From an uncultured delta proteobacterium (GTDB taxonomy: Bacteria > Desulfobacterota > Desulfobulbia > Desulfobulbales > Desulfocapsaceae): DNA of 64,000 bases. The stretch lies in assembly GCA_903875445.1 (NCBI GenBank), contig CAIQWD010000116.1, positions 1 through 64,000 on the forward strand, read 5' to 3'. Each line of letters begins with the position of its first letter. Position 1 is the first letter of the stretch. The notes beneath the pieces are model-generated. The model was not told the origin of the DNA, did no database searches, and saw nothing but the letters and a program-made list of their open reading frames with translations. The translations under genes were made by a program, and so were the position numbers. This document shows, piece by piece, positions 8,571 to 43,247 of the stretch.

Positions 8571-8984
8571 ATGGAACGGACTTTTGCAATCATCAAACCC
8601 AATGCCTTTGCCGATGGCAACAGTGGAAAAATCATCAGCCGCATTTATCAGGAAGGCTTCACCATCGTCGGCTTGAAAAAGCTTTATCTCAGTAAAGTCG
8701 AGGCGGAAGGCTTTTATTATGTGCATAAAAGCAGGCCGTTTTTCGGCGAGTTGACCGAGTTCATGTCCAGTGGCCCCTGCATCGCCATGGTCCTGGAAGC
8801 GGACAATGCCATCCTGAAGTGGCGGGATCTTATGGGCGCCACCAACCCTGCCCAGGCCGCAGAAGGAACTTTGCGCCGGGAATTCGGTAAATCCCTCGGC
8901 GAAAATGCCACGCACGGCTCGGACGGACCGGAAACGGCTGCTTTCGAAATCGGCTATTTCTTCGCCGGCCTGGAACTTCTGTAA
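8571..8984 (+). CDS. ndk: nucleoside diphosphate kinase
   Basis: This 137-residue protein has the NDK start TFAIIKPNA and the phospho-histidine motif NATHGSD near residue 115. It transfers the gamma-phosphate of ATP to other nucleoside diphosphates. The ATG at 8571 is preceded by GAGGGAG. It starts 38 bases after cbiB and may be transcribed with the cobalamin operon, but there is no functional need for that link beyond nucleotide supply. Confidence 0.96.
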
Positions 8985-9096: not shown

Positions 9097-9394
9097 CCTG
9101 ATAAGGAAAGCCCACACCGCCGATTTTTCCGTGAACGATCTTTCAGGCTGAACCAGTCTGATGCACCTCGCGTTTGTACATTTCCAGGATGTAACCATCG
9201 CACTTCAACAAGTTTTGGTTGCCCAGCCAGTACGTCAACTATTCAAAAAATCGCAGGATTATCTTCGTCTTTTTTTCTGTTATCCTGATGGTTGTATTGA
9301 AAACAAGGAGTTTTTGCCTTCCCATCATTTTGTCTAATGTTTTGCTGTTTTTATGACAGGTAAGTGTCTGTTATTCCGTCGTCGAATCTCATAT

Positions 9395-9425
9395 CATTAG
9401 ACAAAATAATCTATTTTGTCTAATG
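9395..9425. repeat. 31-nt palindrome, copy 1
   Basis: CATTAGACAAAATA, a 3-base spacer, then its exact complement TATTTTGTCTAATG. A close variant lies at 10340-10370 and a half-copy at 9327-9344, so the unit brackets the cassette-borne gene 9504-10265. It could be a protein-binding operator or a recombination-related repeat. Confidence 0.7.
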
Positions 9426-9480
9426 TTGCTATACGTGGGGTTTTTGTGTGATGGCACTTTTAAGATTTCCTCAAACAATA

Positions 9481-9526
9481 ATGATTTATTGCGAACATGT
9501 TTCATGATTTATTGCGAACATGTTTC
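9481..9526. repeat. 23-bp perfect tandem duplication in the 5' part of a gene
   Basis: The 23-base unit beginning ATGATTTATTGCGAACATG occurs twice head to tail (9481-9503 and 9504-9526). Twenty-three is not a multiple of three. Removing one unit joins an ATG at 9451 (MALLRFPQTI) in frame with MIYCEHVSYIV of the downstream gene. The duplication therefore appears recent and breaks the likely original start. Confidence 0.85.
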
Positions 9527-10265
9527 GTATATTGTAGGTTCTTTTGAAGAGTATTATAAGAAGGGGGTGCAAGCCCAAGAAGACAAAGCTTCAGAAAAAA
9601 ACAAAACTGGTGTGTTATTCAGAACTACAGATTTATTTGTTAGGTTTTTTACTAAAGAAAAAATGGCATCTATTATAAGTGGAATAACTGGACCATCAAT
9701 CTTAACCTTCATAGGTGGGGCGATGTGTTTAATTGGAGCCATTTGGGCGTCAGTTCAACAATCAAATAAAACCAATGAGATCACAGAACTGAATAAACAA
9801 ATATTAAATACATCGACTGGAGGCGACAGTTTTCCATATTTTGTTCCCAGTTTCAGTTCGAGTAGTAGTTTTCCCGAGTCATTAACTATATTGAGTGAGG
9901 GAAAATATCCTATATATGACCTAAGTTATCGTGTAACCGACTTAGATGACTTTGAAACAGCGCAGAAAAATCCTGATGCGAAGAAAAACGTTCTTAATAT
10001 AGGAATAGAAAATGCTGTTGGAAACCTTCCACCGAATGCTGCTATGTCTTCTGGTTTAACAATGCGAGAAAAGGAATATACCCGATTAACCGTTCAGTTT
10101 ACCACACGCAATAAACACTTAATGCAGAGCATAAGAATTAAAAAAGTTGGTAAAGAATATAAAACGGCTATGTGTGTCAAAAATACATTCCCTCCAAATG
10201 AGACTTTGTATTTGAAAATTGACGATGGTTATCCACTAAACAAGGAGGGAGTGGTTGAGTGGTAA
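9504..10265 (+). CDS. cassette-borne hypothetical membrane protein
   Basis: This 253-residue protein is of unknown family. Residues about 1-50 are charged. A single hydrophobic segment (GPSILTFIGGAMCLIGAIWA, near residue 70-90) is followed by a short heptad-like stretch and a C-terminal soluble domain, likely beta-rich, of about 150 residues. The gene is clearly more AT-rich than its neighbours, suggesting transfer. Before the 23-bp duplication it probably started at ATG 9451. The present frame can start at 9504 or, through the palindrome, at 9423. Its stop codon directly abuts an attC-like site, as in integron gene cassettes. Confidence 0.6.
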   Translation: MIYCEHVSYIVGSFEEYYKKGVQAQEDKASEKNKTGVLFRTTDLFVRFFTKEKMASIISGITGPSILTFIGGAMCLIGAIWASVQQSNKTNEITELNKQILNTSTGGDSFPYFVPSFSSSSSFPESLTILSEGKYPIYDLSYRVTDLDDFETAQKNPDAKKNVLNIGIENAVGNLPPNAAMSSGLTMREKEYTRLTVQFTTRNKHLMQSIRIKKVGKEYKTAMCVKNTFPPNETLYLKIDDGYPLNKEGVVEW

Positions 10266-10325
10266 CCCTAATAAAGTTAATGCAGCCGACGCAAAAAGCC
10301 GCGCAGTTGATTAGCAGTGTTATTC
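10266..10325 (+). other. integron attC-like recombination site
   Basis: Directly after the stop codon lies a sequence with attC layout: R'' CTAATAA at 10268, L'' CAGCCGACGC at 10283-10292, loop, L' GCGCAGTTG at 10301-10309, R' GTTATTC at 10319-10325. L'' and L' pair with one unpaired A (10289), the extrahelical base typical of attC. TAAT/ATTA and AATAA/TTATT extend the stem around an unpaired middle. It resembles classical sites such as those of aadA cassettes. R' departs from GTTRRRY. No integrase or second clear attC is in the window. Confidence 0.62.
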
Positions 10326-10339
10326 CCTAGCTTGCCCCG

Positions 10340-10370
10340 ATTAGACAGAATAATTCAAAATGTCTAATGT
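10340..10370. repeat. 31-nt palindrome, copy 2
   Basis: GATTAGACAGAATAATTC...TGTCTAATG is an imperfect version of the 9395-9425 palindrome with the same length and outer arms. It lies just outside the attC-like site. With the half-site at 9327-9344 it places TGTCTAATGTTTTG on both sides of the cassette. Confidence 0.6.
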
Positions 10371-10471
10371 TTTGAGCTTAATAAGTTTAGCCAGTGATCG
10401 ACATCGCGCCTGACCAGATTTTGTCGAATTACCCATGGCGAAAAGCTAGGAATTGTTACATCGGTAAATCC

Positions 10472-10537
10472 CTATTTGCAGCTGATAACAACACAATCCA
10501 ACTGACTGTGCTGCAGCAGAATATTGAGTTTCAACCC
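10472..10537 (-). pseudogene. decayed copy of the xseA 3' end
   Basis: On the minus strand this stretch reads KLNILLQHSQLDCVVISCK and a stop, against LNVLLQDGQLDCVVTKSECG at the true XseA C-terminus (11297-11361). The two share about 45 nearly identical bases, then diverge. The copy starts at the stop codon of the HEPN gene. Together the two ends form direct repeats around the toxin-antitoxin pair, as expected when a segment inserts into, or is exchanged at, the end of xseA. Confidence 0.75.
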
Positions 10538-10882
10538 ATCAAATTGGTTGTGTTCAATTTTACAAGGAGGGTCTTCAATTCAGGCAAGCGCTCCTGTGAG
10601 ACTTTCCAGACAGTCATAAGATCAACGCCCATATAATCATGGATGAGCACATCCCGCATCCCGGCCATTTTATTCCAAGGTATGTCAGGATATTTTTTTC
10701 TGAAAGATGGCGGGATATGCTTGGTGGCTTCGCCAAGGACTTCAAGACTTCTGATTACTGCATTGATGGTCCCTATCCCCTGTAAACAACTCATAGGACA
10801 TGCCATGCGTGAATTCTTCGATATCGGTAATGGCAATGATGATATCGTTAAGATAATCGGTGAGTTCCTGCCCTTTAGACAT
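10531..10882 (-). pseudogene. hepT: HEPN toxin (HepT/DUF86 family), frameshifted
   Basis: The first frame from ATG 10882 reads MSKGQELTDYLNDIIIAITDIEEF and on to GMSYELF, then stops early. The next frame continues NAVIRSLEVLGEATKHIP to residue NLMG. One extra base in the C-run at 10777-10780 (G-run on the coding strand) explains the shift. HEPN motif RDVLIHDY (R-x4-H) is intact. HepT toxins are RNases neutralised by an MNT nucleotidyltransferase. The gene overlaps mntA by eight bases. It is either inactivated, slippage-controlled, or a sequencing error. Confidence 0.8.
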
Positions 10883-11165
10883 ACTCAACCTCGGACAAGA
10901 TGCGCTTGCCGATGGCTGGCTTAAGAGCTGATTCCATTACCAGATCAACTTTGGCGTTGAGTCGACTTTCAAGGAACTCGCGCAAGTCCAGAAAGTCAAA
11001 GAGATCAATATCTCGACTAAAGGTGACGAGTATATCGATATCACTCTTCTTTCGCTGTCGCCCCTTAACATAGGAGCCAAAAAGTCCGAGCCGCTGGACT
11101 CCGTAGTGCGCCTCCATCTCTGGTTTGTTGCTTCGAATTGCGTCGATGATCTCTTTTTTATTCAT
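10875..11165 (-). CDS. mntA: MNT-type nucleotidyltransferase antitoxin
   Basis: This 96-residue minimal nucleotidyltransferase carries the GSX10DXD signature (GSYVKGRQRKKSDID) and a later Asp in AKVDLV. Members of the MntA family AMPylate a Tyr of the partner HEPN toxin. The gene is intact and overlaps the frameshifted hepT. Both are inserted downstream of xseA in the same orientation. The 130 bases upstream hold no gene and presumably carry its promoter. Confidence 0.88.
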   Translation of the reverse strand: MNKKEIIDAIRSNKPEMEAHYGVQRLGLFGSYVKGRQRKKSDIDILVTFSRDIDLFDFLDLREFLESRLNAKVDLVMESALKPAIGKRILSEVEYV

Positions 11166-11296: not shown

Positions 11297-12655
11297 TTAG
11301 CCGCATTCGCTTTTCGTTACAACACAATCCAACTGACCATCCTGCAGCAGAACATTGAGTTCCTCTCCAACCCGGGCATCTCTTGCCCGCGCCACCACTC
11401 GCCAGGTGGCATCCTCCCCTTGTCTTTTGCGAACGATTGCATAGCCTCTCGCCAAGGTCGCAAGCGGGCTCACCCCGTGCAAAAGGGTCGCCTGCTCGGC
11501 AAGCGCCGCCTGCTTGCGTTCCAAGGTGCGCTGCATATGATTTTTCAGCTGGCTGACAAGCAGATGAACGCGTTGCTCCTGCAATTCGATTCGGTTCGAG
11601 GGAATTTCTTTCTGCAAACTGCGGGTGAGCAACTGCAACCTTTGTTCTTTCGCCTGCAGGCAGGCGTATACCGCCTGCAGCAGATGCACCTTGCTGAGAT
11701 TCAAGCGGAACTCTAAGCTGTTAAACACATTTCGCATATCCCCCAGCATCTTTTTGTGGTGCAACAGCTGCTGTTCGAGAAAGTGTATCTTGCGCTCAAC
11801 TCGAAGCTGCAAGCTGGCCTGCAAGGAACGGACATGGCGGCGCAACATATCCGCATCGGGTACCAGTTTTTCCGCCGCCCCGGTGGGGGTGGGGCAGCGA
11901 AAATCGGCGCAGAAATCGGCAATGGTGAAATCGACTTCATGACCTATTCCGGTCACCACCGGCAAGACTGAACGATGGATAGCTTCGGCAACGATCTCCT
12001 CATTGAAGGCCCAGAGATCTTCGATGGAACCGCCGCCTCGGCACAGGACTATAATATCGGCTCCGGCAATCCCTTGCGCTCTTTCGATAGCTCCGGCTAT
12101 CTCGGCCGCTGCGCCTTTTCCTTGTACCTTTACCGGCAGAATCTGAATATGTACCGGCGATTTTCTATTGCCGACGATCTTGAGGAAATCCTGAATGGCT
12201 GCCCCGGTTGGCGAGGTGATGACGATTATTTTCCCAGGGTAGGGCGGCACGGGCCTTTTTCGCTCGGCGGCAAAATACCCCTTGTCGGCAAGTTTACGTT
12301 TCAGTTGCTCAAACTCGCGCAATAAGTTACCGATGCCGTAGAGTTCGACGCTGTCGATCACGACCTGATACTCACCGCGCGGTTCATACACGGAAATTCT
12401 GCCGAACACCACTACCTGCTGACCATCCTGTAAATTGAGTTCGACAAACCTTTTCTGCTGCTTGAAAAGTACTGCCCGGATCTGCGCTCCGGCATCCTTT
12501 AAAGTGAAATAGTAATGACCGGAGAAAGGGATTTTCAAATTGGAGATTTCCCCGCAGATTCTCACAAACCGGTACTCGGTTTCGAGAATATCTTTGATTG
12601 CTGCTGTGAGTTGGCTGACAGTAAGGATGGCCGGGGTATTCAAGGTATTCATCAT
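11297..12655 (-). CDS. xseA: exodeoxyribonuclease VII large subunit
   Basis: This 452-residue protein has the OB-fold N-terminal domain (about 10-110), the catalytic domain with VITSPTGAAIQDFL, RGGGSIEDLWAFN and GIGHEVDFTIADF, a long coiled coil (about 280-390), and a C-terminal RGYAIV element. It degrades single-stranded DNA together with XseB, which is not in the window. Its last about 20 codons are duplicated at 10472-10537, marking the edge of an insertion. Two adjacent ATGs can start it, without a strong binding site. Confidence 0.95.
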   Translation of the reverse strand: MMNTLNTPAILTVSQLTAAIKDILETEYRFVRICGEISNLKIPFSGHYYFTLKDAGAQIRAVLFKQQKRFVELNLQDGQQVVVFGRISVYEPRGEYQVVIDSVELYGIGNLLREFEQLKRKLADKGYFAAERKRPVPPYPGKIIVITSPTGAAIQDFLKIVGNRKSPVHIQILPVKVQGKGAAAEIAGAIERAQGIAGADIIVLCRGGGSIEDLWAFNEEIVAEAIHRSVLPVVTGIGHEVDFTIADFCADFRCPTPTGAAEKLVPDADMLRRHVRSLQASLQLRVERKIHFLEQQLLHHKKMLGDMRNVFNSLEFRLNLSKVHLLQAVYACLQAKEQRLQLLTRSLQKEIPSNRIELQEQRVHLLVSQLKNHMQRTLERKQAALAEQATLLHGVSPLATLARGYAIVRKRQGEDATWRVVARARDARVGEELNVLLQDGQLDCVVTKSECG

Positions 12656-41411: not shown

Positions 41412-43247
41412 ATGAATGCATCTTCAGCTACTTACGATGAAAGCAAGATAAAAACCCTGAGTTCCCTGGACCATATTCGCAAGCGTCCGGGGATGTATAT
41501 CGGCCGGCTCGGCGACGGCTCGCATCACGATGACGGCATCTATATTCTCCTCAAAGAGGTAGTGGATAACGCCATCGACGAATTTATCATGGGGGCAGGG
41601 AAGCGGGTTAACATTACCATCGGTTCGACCGGGTATGTAACCGTACGGGATTTCGGCAGAGGTATACCGCTTGGTAAGTTAGTAGATTGTGTATCAACCA
41701 TCAATACCGGGGCAAAATATAACACCGATGTCTTTCAGTTTTCGGTAGGTCTTAATGGTGTTGGCACAAAGGCGGTTAATGCGCTTTCAGAGGTATTCAC
41801 TGTAACATCCTATCGTGAAGGAATATTTGCATCAGCGAAATTTAACGATGGCAAACTCATCGACAAGACGGAGGGGGACACCGAGGAAAAGAATGGCACA
41901 CTCATCGAATTCATGCCATCAACCAAGATGTTTCCCGAGTTCACCTTTGATCCGGCCTTTGTTGAAAAACGATTATGGAGATACGCCTATCTTAACGCCG
42001 GCCTGAAAATCTATTTCGACAAAAAGGTTTTTTATTCGGCCAACGGCTTGCTCGATCTCCTCGATAAGGAACTGGATGGGGCGCAGCTCTATAAACCCAT
42101 CTATTACCGGGATGCGATCCTTGAATTTGCCTTTTCACACACCGACACCTTCAGCGATTGCTACTTTACCTTTGTCAACGGCACCTACACCAGTGAAGGA
42201 GGCACTCATCTTTCTGCATTCCGGGAGGGTATCCTCAAAGGCATAAACGAATTCTCCGGCAAAAAATTTATCAACACCGATGTCCGCGACGGTATAGTCG
42301 GAACCTTGGCGATCAAGATCAAGGATCCGGTCTTTGAATCGCAGACTAAAAACAAACTCGGCAACACCGAAATACGGTCGTGGATCGCCGGCAAAGTCCG
42401 GGATGCCGTTTCCAGTGCCCTCTACAAAGATACCGAATCGGCGCAGATCCTCATTGAGAAGATACTGCGCAATGAAGACGTACGCAAAGAACTACAGAGT
42501 GTCCGCTCTGAAGCGCGTGCCAATGCCAAGAAAGTCGCACTGAAAATCGATCAGCTGAAAGACTGCAAATACCACCCCGCAAAGGACAAGCCCTCGCTGG
42601 AGGGAAGAGAAAGCATGGTCTTTATTACCGAGGGGCAATCGGCCGCCGGTTCGATTGTTTCATCGAGAGACCCTATGACCCAGGCGGTCTTTTCGTTGAA
42701 AGGAAAACCGCTCAACGTCTATGGCCAAAAAATGGCCATGCTCTACAAAAATGAAGAGATGTATGCCCTGATGCGGGCTCTCAATATCGAGGATTCGATT
42801 TCCGACATACGCTACGACAAGGTGATTTTGGCAACGGATGCCGATGTTGACGGCCTTCATATCAGAAACCTGCTCCTTACCTTTTTTCTGCATTATTTCG
42901 AGCCATTAGTCAAACTTGGATACGTCTATATCCTGGAGACTCCGATCTTTCGCGTTCGCAACAAACAAGAAACAATCTACTGTTATTCCGAGCAGGAAAA
43001 ACAGACGGCGACGCTTAAATTGCAGGGCTCAGGCAGCAAGGGGCAAGGGGTTGAAACAACGCGTTTCAAAGGGCTTGGCGAGATTTCCCCGAAAGAGTTT
43101 AAACAATTTATCGGACCGGATATTCGTCTCAAGAATGTGACCCTTGATTCTCTCAGCGAGGTGACCAAGGTTCTCACCTTCTATATGGGCAAAAACACCC
43201 CTGTGCGACGAAAATACATTATGGACCACCTGATCCTTACCAATTAA
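41412..43247 (+). CDS. parE: DNA topoisomerase IV subunit B
   Basis: This 611-residue ATPase subunit has the GHKL residues in EVVDNAIDEF and GRGIPLG, and RKRPGMYIG. The TOPRIM domain has TEGQSA and the metal triad DADVD in ATDADVDGL. It lacks the large insert of enterobacterial GyrB, as in ParE-type proteins of anaerobes. The TOPRIM motif normally reads EGDSA; here codon CAA at 42636-42638 gives Gln at the position equivalent to E. coli GyrB Asp426. It forms a pair with parC 65 bases on. Confidence 0.92.
   Translation: MNASSATYDESKIKTLSSLDHIRKRPGMYIGRLGDGSHHDDGIYILLKEVVDNAIDEFIMGAGKRVNITIGSTGYVTVRDFGRGIPLGKLVDCVSTINTGAKYNTDVFQFSVGLNGVGTKAVNALSEVFTVTSYREGIFASAKFNDGKLIDKTEGDTEEKNGTLIEFMPSTKMFPEFTFDPAFVEKRLWRYAYLNAGLKIYFDKKVFYSANGLLDLLDKELDGAQLYKPIYYRDAILEFAFSHTDTFSDCYFTFVNGTYTSEGGTHLSAFREGILKGINEFSGKKFINTDVRDGIVGTLAIKIKDPVFESQTKNKLGNTEIRSWIAGKVRDAVSSALYKDTESAQILIEKILRNEDVRKELQSVRSEARANAKKVALKIDQLKDCKYHPAKDKPSLEGRESMVFITEGQSAAGSIVSSRDPMTQAVFSLKGKPLNVYGQKMAMLYKNEEMYALMRALNIEDSISDIRYDKVILATDADVDGLHIRNLLLTFFLHYFEPLVKLGYVYILETPIFRVRNKQETIYCYSEQEKQTATLKLQGSGSKGQGVETTRFKGLGEISPKEFKQFIGPDIRLKNVTLDSLSEVTKVLTFYMGKNTPVRRKYIMDHLILTN

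Follow-up and report, generated by a model that had tools for sequence, protein, structure and literature searches.

How does a gene directly followed by an attC-like sequence come to lie between ndk and xseA, with no integron integrase beside it? The window, a 64,000-nucleotide stretch of DNA from an uncultured delta proteobacterium (Desulfocapsaceae), opens contig C116 of its 4.9-Mb genome, and the gene lies between ndk, which ends at 8984, and xseA, which ends at 11297. An initial annotation took it for a lone cassette that an integrase encoded elsewhere had inserted at a random secondary site. About half of that account stands, its observation being partly confirmed and its interpretation partly supported. 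A random site is not supported: the gene lies inside a short non-autonomous element, one of a hitherto undescribed family in Desulfobulbales (Desulfocapsaceae and relatives), and its slot is a conserved platform within these palindrome-ended elements. We lean towards reading the window copy as an integrase-less, mini-integron-like platform carried by a small non-autonomous mobile element. The parts of the window element are given on the forward strand.

An element family inserted downstream of ndk

In five relatives (G006, G003, G012, G004, and G011), the gap between ndk and xseA measures about 100–180 bp and contains neither an insert nor any of the S palindromes described below. The corresponding gap in the window is 2.3 kb long and holds the element together with a separate HepT/MntA pair further right. 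There is good support both for the element family as such and for its insertion here, with sequence comparison indicating an insertion downstream of ndk into an ancestral gap that lacked an insert. The outer ends cannot be fixed to the base because the intergenic DNA has diverged; at the ends of homology, which are thus defined only approximately, we saw neither a target duplication nor terminal inverted repeats.

The same gap shows signs of other insertions. A 43-bp copy of the xseA 3′ end (10488–10530 versus 11319–11361, 91% identity) lies to the left of the HepT/MntA pair (10531–11165), as though xseA had received the pair at its end and that end had been duplicated in the process. In the relative G005 (L151, G005:C274:11400-23499), another insert, 10.8 kb long and devoid of S sites, occupies the gap and carries TRAP-transporter-like genes; the gap may be an insertion hotspot. 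An Rfam scan of the window returned only a tRNA.

Searching the genome with positions 9300–10420 revealed further loci that share the ends of this segment and not its middle. Five copies are present, each with a different cargo, and their parts follow the order left module with S1, S2, ML, cargo, MR, S3, right module. The left module (L, 9262–9395) is 71–79% identical to that of C66, G004, C107, and others; in other copies it is conserved over some 110–230 bp, and it is absent from the relatives' ndk–xseA gap. The right flank starts at 10369–10387 (GTTT...), near the point where identity between the C107 copy and the window ends, and is weakly conserved in the window copy. A scan of the element for promoters and terminators yielded no more than in shuffled sequences.

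The left part occurs in 10 of the 97 genomes searched, including the window's own; a search of the remaining genomes for the cargo protein found nothing. By matched public contigs, the relatives with the same sites belong to the Desulfobulbales, among them Desulfopila sp. IMCC35006 and Desulfoprunum benzoelyticum. Two S-bearing contigs are labelled Rhodospirillaceae and Roizmanbacteria (L167 and L168), reflecting either a binning error or transfer; L168 shows the full ML–cargo–MR–S order.

Across several genera, the orders L–S–ML and MR–S–R recur at unrelated loci. This regularity argues against regarding the copies as remnants of former chromosomal integron arrays (lone attC sites or small cassette clusters) that were scattered by recombination and are now immobile. 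Such debris would account for the decayed attC of the window, for a degraded intI on contig C64, and for the degenerate S sites of some copies, but given the preserved order we consider it very unlikely.

The cargo gene and the boundaries of its proposed cassette

The open reading frame is real and spans 9423 or 9504 to 10265. It had been annotated from 9504, and its end at 10265 holds, whereas ML homology and two homologues suggest that translation truly starts at ATG 9663. The in-frame ATG at 9504 belongs to the second unit of a 23-bp tandem duplication in ML (9481–9526) that was not seen in other copies when these were aligned. The resulting gene (9663–10265) encodes a 200-aa protein with a TGGDSFPY motif and, as noted initially, one membrane helix, located at its N-terminus. 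The protein matched nothing in Pfam, NCBIfam, or PADLOC, a PDB sequence search gave nothing significant, no plasmid or phage homologues were found, and its structure prediction was unusable (pLDDT 35, no alignment depth). A search of 395 genomes from the phylum found distant homologues in two besides the window's own. One of them, L179 (BLASTP 3e-12), directly precedes an attC of 25 bits, in line with the original idea that the gene belongs to a cassette; the other, L178 (1e-19), has no recognised attC.

The gene is flanked by two conserved stretches. ML (9441–9639) is a conserved non-coding leader or attI-like stretch that matches its consensus at 67% in the window and at 88–94% in L069, L076, L066, L019, and L020; elsewhere the end of ML is formed by an inverted repeat, CTGGATAACA..TGTTATCCAG. 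In two relatives, the ML end with this repeat also recurs between cargo genes (L076 7489-7524 and L075 5093-5144). MR (GTTATTCCCTAGCTTGCCCCG, 21 nt, 10319–10339), the right half of the proposed slot, is common to the window, L082, L168, C100, and C69. It starts at G|TT in all five copies compared (window, G046, L168, C100, and C69), where the preceding sequences are unrelated, and the right boundary given initially is supported. Beyond the known copies, the MR pattern occurs in the genus at chance level.

The left boundary had to be moved. It had been set at 9368 since TGTTATTCC appeared at both ends, and exact copies do lie at 9369–9377 and 10318–10326, but a third is found at 42981; 0.45 copies are expected per 64 kb, and at least three occurred in 1 of 100 shuffles. 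The left copy proved to be a chance variant of the CTGATnTTCC conserved in the left module, and TGTTATTC at 9613 is a better left partner. The homology of the window ML to G004, G33b, and G43 ends at ..CAGATTTATTTG|TTAGGT (TTTG|TTAGGT), and G004 reads ..CTGTTTG|TTAAGC in the equal column; both are canonical GTTRRRY, a pattern with a frequency of 0.0005 per base. Because this canonical TTTG|TTAGGT coincides with the end of ML homology, the cassette probably extends over 9640–10319 rather than from 9368, with G9639|T9640 as the best supported left boundary on sequence grounds. The proposed cassette of 680 bp would thus begin with TTAGGT after G9639 and end at G10319, before the TTATTC at the start of MR, and comprise a 23-nt leader, the 200-aa gene, and 54 nt of attC-like sequence. 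Two observations count against the slot reading: in the ML copies of G33, G43, and C66, homology breaks without a GTT, and no empty ML–MR slot was seen.

The candidate attC (10266–10325) is degenerate, with R″ CCCTAAT at 10266–10272, a bulged L″/L′, and a junction at G10319|T10320. The CCTAA of R″ pairs over 5 bp with the TTAGG of the proposed cassette's own R′; the right end would lie at the G|TT of MR and the left end at the GTTAGGT of the homology break. The bottom strand with the circular junction folds into an R stem, an internal loop, and a bulged L stem (−4.3 kcal/mol). The attC-like folding described initially is weakly favoured by a home-made attC-architecture score (15 at the site versus 9.1–9.4 for shuffles; no shuffle reached it in a set of 500 and two did in a set of 1000, as did 1.7% of the GTT positions in the window) and not by the free-energy fold, which does not differ significantly from shuffles (z +1.15). 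The architecture score is not specific, as the window site outscores some accepted attCs, and it fails to separate some accepted attCs from shuffled sequence. The covariance-model match by which the initial annotation proposed to check the site was obtained, at the standard threshold, with neither of two models: the class-1 attC model R1 reached at best −0.9 to 0.1 bits with filters off, where held-out class-1 attCs score 29–59 bits, and the lineage-enriched model R3 gave no match.

Sister copies hold integron cassettes in the same slot, a point in favour of the initial interpretation. The C100 copy contains TTAGGTC..ACCTAAC-attC-CCG|TTAGCG with R″ and R′ matching at 7 of 7 positions, and its attC shares 80% identity across 91 nt with the one beside the degraded intI of C64, an integron remnant. 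The second cargo of this copy, AbiU2, ends at G|TTCCTTAGCTTGCCCC, that is, at MR. Model R3 scored 25.8 bits for G017 (Desulfoprunum) and 21.9 bits for G046, both of which are in its training set; the class-1-only model gave 9.4 bits for C100 and 8.9 bits for G046 (E about 0.01 in 161 nt). In G004, a site between the Abi-alpha and ApeA cargo genes looks like an attC by eye and was not found with the class-1 model. The C100 and Desulfoprunum copies hold integron cassettes with attC, and the G004 copy probably does. In the C100 copy (L020 3236-3931), a Fic-domain gene extends into ML, and its C-terminus is therefore encoded by the element.

The cargos themselves are diverse. They include a HEPN protein with a superinfection immunity protein (C66), a HigB-like toxin with an HTH antitoxin (C69), Abi-alpha with an ApeA-like HEPN protein (G004), NERD (G003), a weak AbiGi match (G017), and PDC-S59 (L168), and, outside defence, a methyltransferase, EamA, CopD, and unknowns. 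By simple tally, with no enrichment statistic, about half are defence- or toxin–antitoxin-like. Because neighbouring cargos are of this kind, we take a role as membrane-linked defence effector to be probable for the window protein.

These data bear on whether the family consists of plain MITE-like non-autonomous transposons that acquired cargo when transposition went wrong or by homologous recombination, with G|TT junctions that arose by chance or from cassettes inserted a single time early on. IS91-type and IS200-type elements adjoin or sit within some copies, and the short conserved ends, the missing enzyme, the dispersal, and the low copy number would fit such transposons. However, this explanation seems rather unlikely to us in view of the MR breakpoint at GTT in all five copies, the attC-bearing cassettes within sister copies, and the lack of terminal inverted repeats or a target duplication among our findings. 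We favour an integron-type cassette as the more probable identity of the window cargo.

Possible action of integrases in trans and possible recombination at the S palindromes

The initial statement that no integrase is present holds for contig C116, where TIGR02249 found no match, and not for the genome, which encodes two full-length IntI proteins (433 and 374 bits, above the family cut-off of 265) and a fragment. They are located on C78, C59, and C64, and the proposal of an integrase encoded elsewhere is thereby supported. A small integron on C78 (L024, 6001-7969) combines intI with a single methyltransferase cassette and its attC; ATATCGCAATAAGTGGAAA is repeated in its attI region, and the junctions read CACTG|TTATGC and CGCATAAC. 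Further attC-like matches of 29–37 bits lie elsewhere in the genome (G000:C98:60237, C70:18743, and C113:128791).

We propose that ML and MR (..ACTTG|TTATTCC..) would form an attI-like slot without an integrase gene, into which IntI from C78 or C59 would recombine circular cassettes at G|TT. The window cassette (9640–10319) would have entered in this way and its attC decayed since. Action of IntI in trans is a serious possibility, to which we give slightly less than even credence.

A second feature of the family is the S palindrome, whose consensus, ATTAGACAAAA-TAATTCA-TTTTGTCTAAT, has 11-bp arms and a 7-bp centre. The window contains three sites. S1 is a half-site (TTTTGTCTAAT, 9328–9338) in the left module. 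S2 (9396–9424) is a 29-bp palindrome, ATTAGACAAAA-TAATCTA-TTTTGTCTAAT, that scores 51.5 bits with the S model (E 7e-11 in the 4.9-Mb genome) and forms a hairpin with z −4.1 (folded stretch 9320–9440). S3 (ATTAGACAGAATAATTCAAAATGTCTAAT, 10340–10368) is imperfect, with 43 bits, E 2.7e-8, and a folding z of −2.57. With the S model, the genome shows eight strong sites, and 13 of the 93 family genomes searched have S sites; the exact pattern occurs at 14 loci among about 85,000 species genomes, nearly all within this lineage; a scan of viral contigs for the exact pattern found none. In some copies S is degenerate, and in the C66 copy (L019 5743-5770), S2 now lies within a far longer palindrome (ACATCAATTGTCATTAGAA...TTCTAATGACAATTGATGT).

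By their sequence, the palindromes are shaped like tyrosine-recombinase core sites (11-7-11). The outer flanks of S are of two types, left and right, and at G004:C13:43521 a single S joins a left-type flank to a right-type flank, the appearance that an empty platform would have. An EamA cargo common to G118 and G018 shares 81% identity, with homology ending at the last bases of S. In two relatives, G043 and G033, the S1–S2 interval is missing and S1 is directly joined to ML. Together, the single-S platform, the G118/G018 break, and the S1–S2 loss suggest recombination at S, to which we give the same credence as to IntI action in trans; a further recombinase may use the palindromes to join, empty, or move platforms.

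No recombinase acting at S was found, and none correlates with S. The tyrosine recombinase beside one copy (L137) was rejected as the mover: it is a multicopy, often broken IS-type gene present in 36 of 93 genomes and unlinked to S, and it is absent from the S-bearing G017, G046, G011, and G007. An IS91-type transposase with a tyrosine recombinase was likewise considered, and these adjoin one copy only (L065).

The S sites raise the possibility that cargo is exchanged at S only, by a host tyrosine recombinase in the manner of dif modules, with ML and MR as mere inner parts of some modules. The single-S platforms, the S-bounded break, the S1–S2 deletion variants, and the core-site shape would all follow, but the G|TT breakpoints and the attC sites would be left unexplained; moreover, S lacks the arm asymmetry (XerC/XerD) that marks dif sites, and the tyrosine recombinase adjoining one copy belongs to the multicopy IS type and does not correlate with S. 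We consider exchange at S only unlikely, and retain the reading of an integrase-less platform within a mobile element.

Relation to known systems and implications

Integrons are usually viewed as one integrase with one adjoining array, and defence genes have been reported among their cargo. The window locus resembles them in its single gene with a putative folded 3′ site, its proposed G|TT junctions, its fixed slot, and a homologue that precedes a true attC. It differs in that no intI adjoins the attI-like slot, which lies inside a palindrome-ended mobile element, and in that its attC fails the covariance models. The S consensus does not read as a dif site.

Three described arrangements come close. 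CALINs and single attC loci are IntegronFinder classes for cassettes away from an integrase (PMC9024848). The present cassettes are similarly distant from an integrase but are flanked in many copies by ML, MR, and S palindromes, and the window contains no recognised attC where a CALIN has at least two together. In Acinetobacter, 439-bp MITEs enclose complete class 1 integrons, intI1 included, and produce target repeats of 5 bp (PMC3934969); here too short non-autonomous sequences flank and apparently mobilise integron material, but there is no intI, no target repeats were found, and the flanks contain the palindromic S. In the dif (pdif) modules of Acinetobacter plasmids, genes are bounded by XerC/XerD sites (PMC6449649, PMC13141974). 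Our elements likewise have genes bounded by inverted-arm sites of about 28–29 bp at which they are apparently exchanged, whereas the S sequence is unrelated to dif, its arms are symmetric, and its location is chromosomal.

A broader picture, which we regard as doubtful, is that Desulfobulbales spread many small integrase-less attI-like platforms over the chromosome as mobile elements, that a few IntI proteins acting in trans load them with defence cassettes, and that a second, site-specific system at S moves or swaps the loaded platforms, giving two levels of gene shuffling. If true, dispersed and self-moving slots without an integrase would change how integrase-less cassette clusters are read and would provide a route for cassettes to leave integrons. 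The S palindrome would then be a compact marker for finding new defence genes, among which the family of the window cargo, with its membrane helix and TGGDSFPY domain, is an unstudied candidate.
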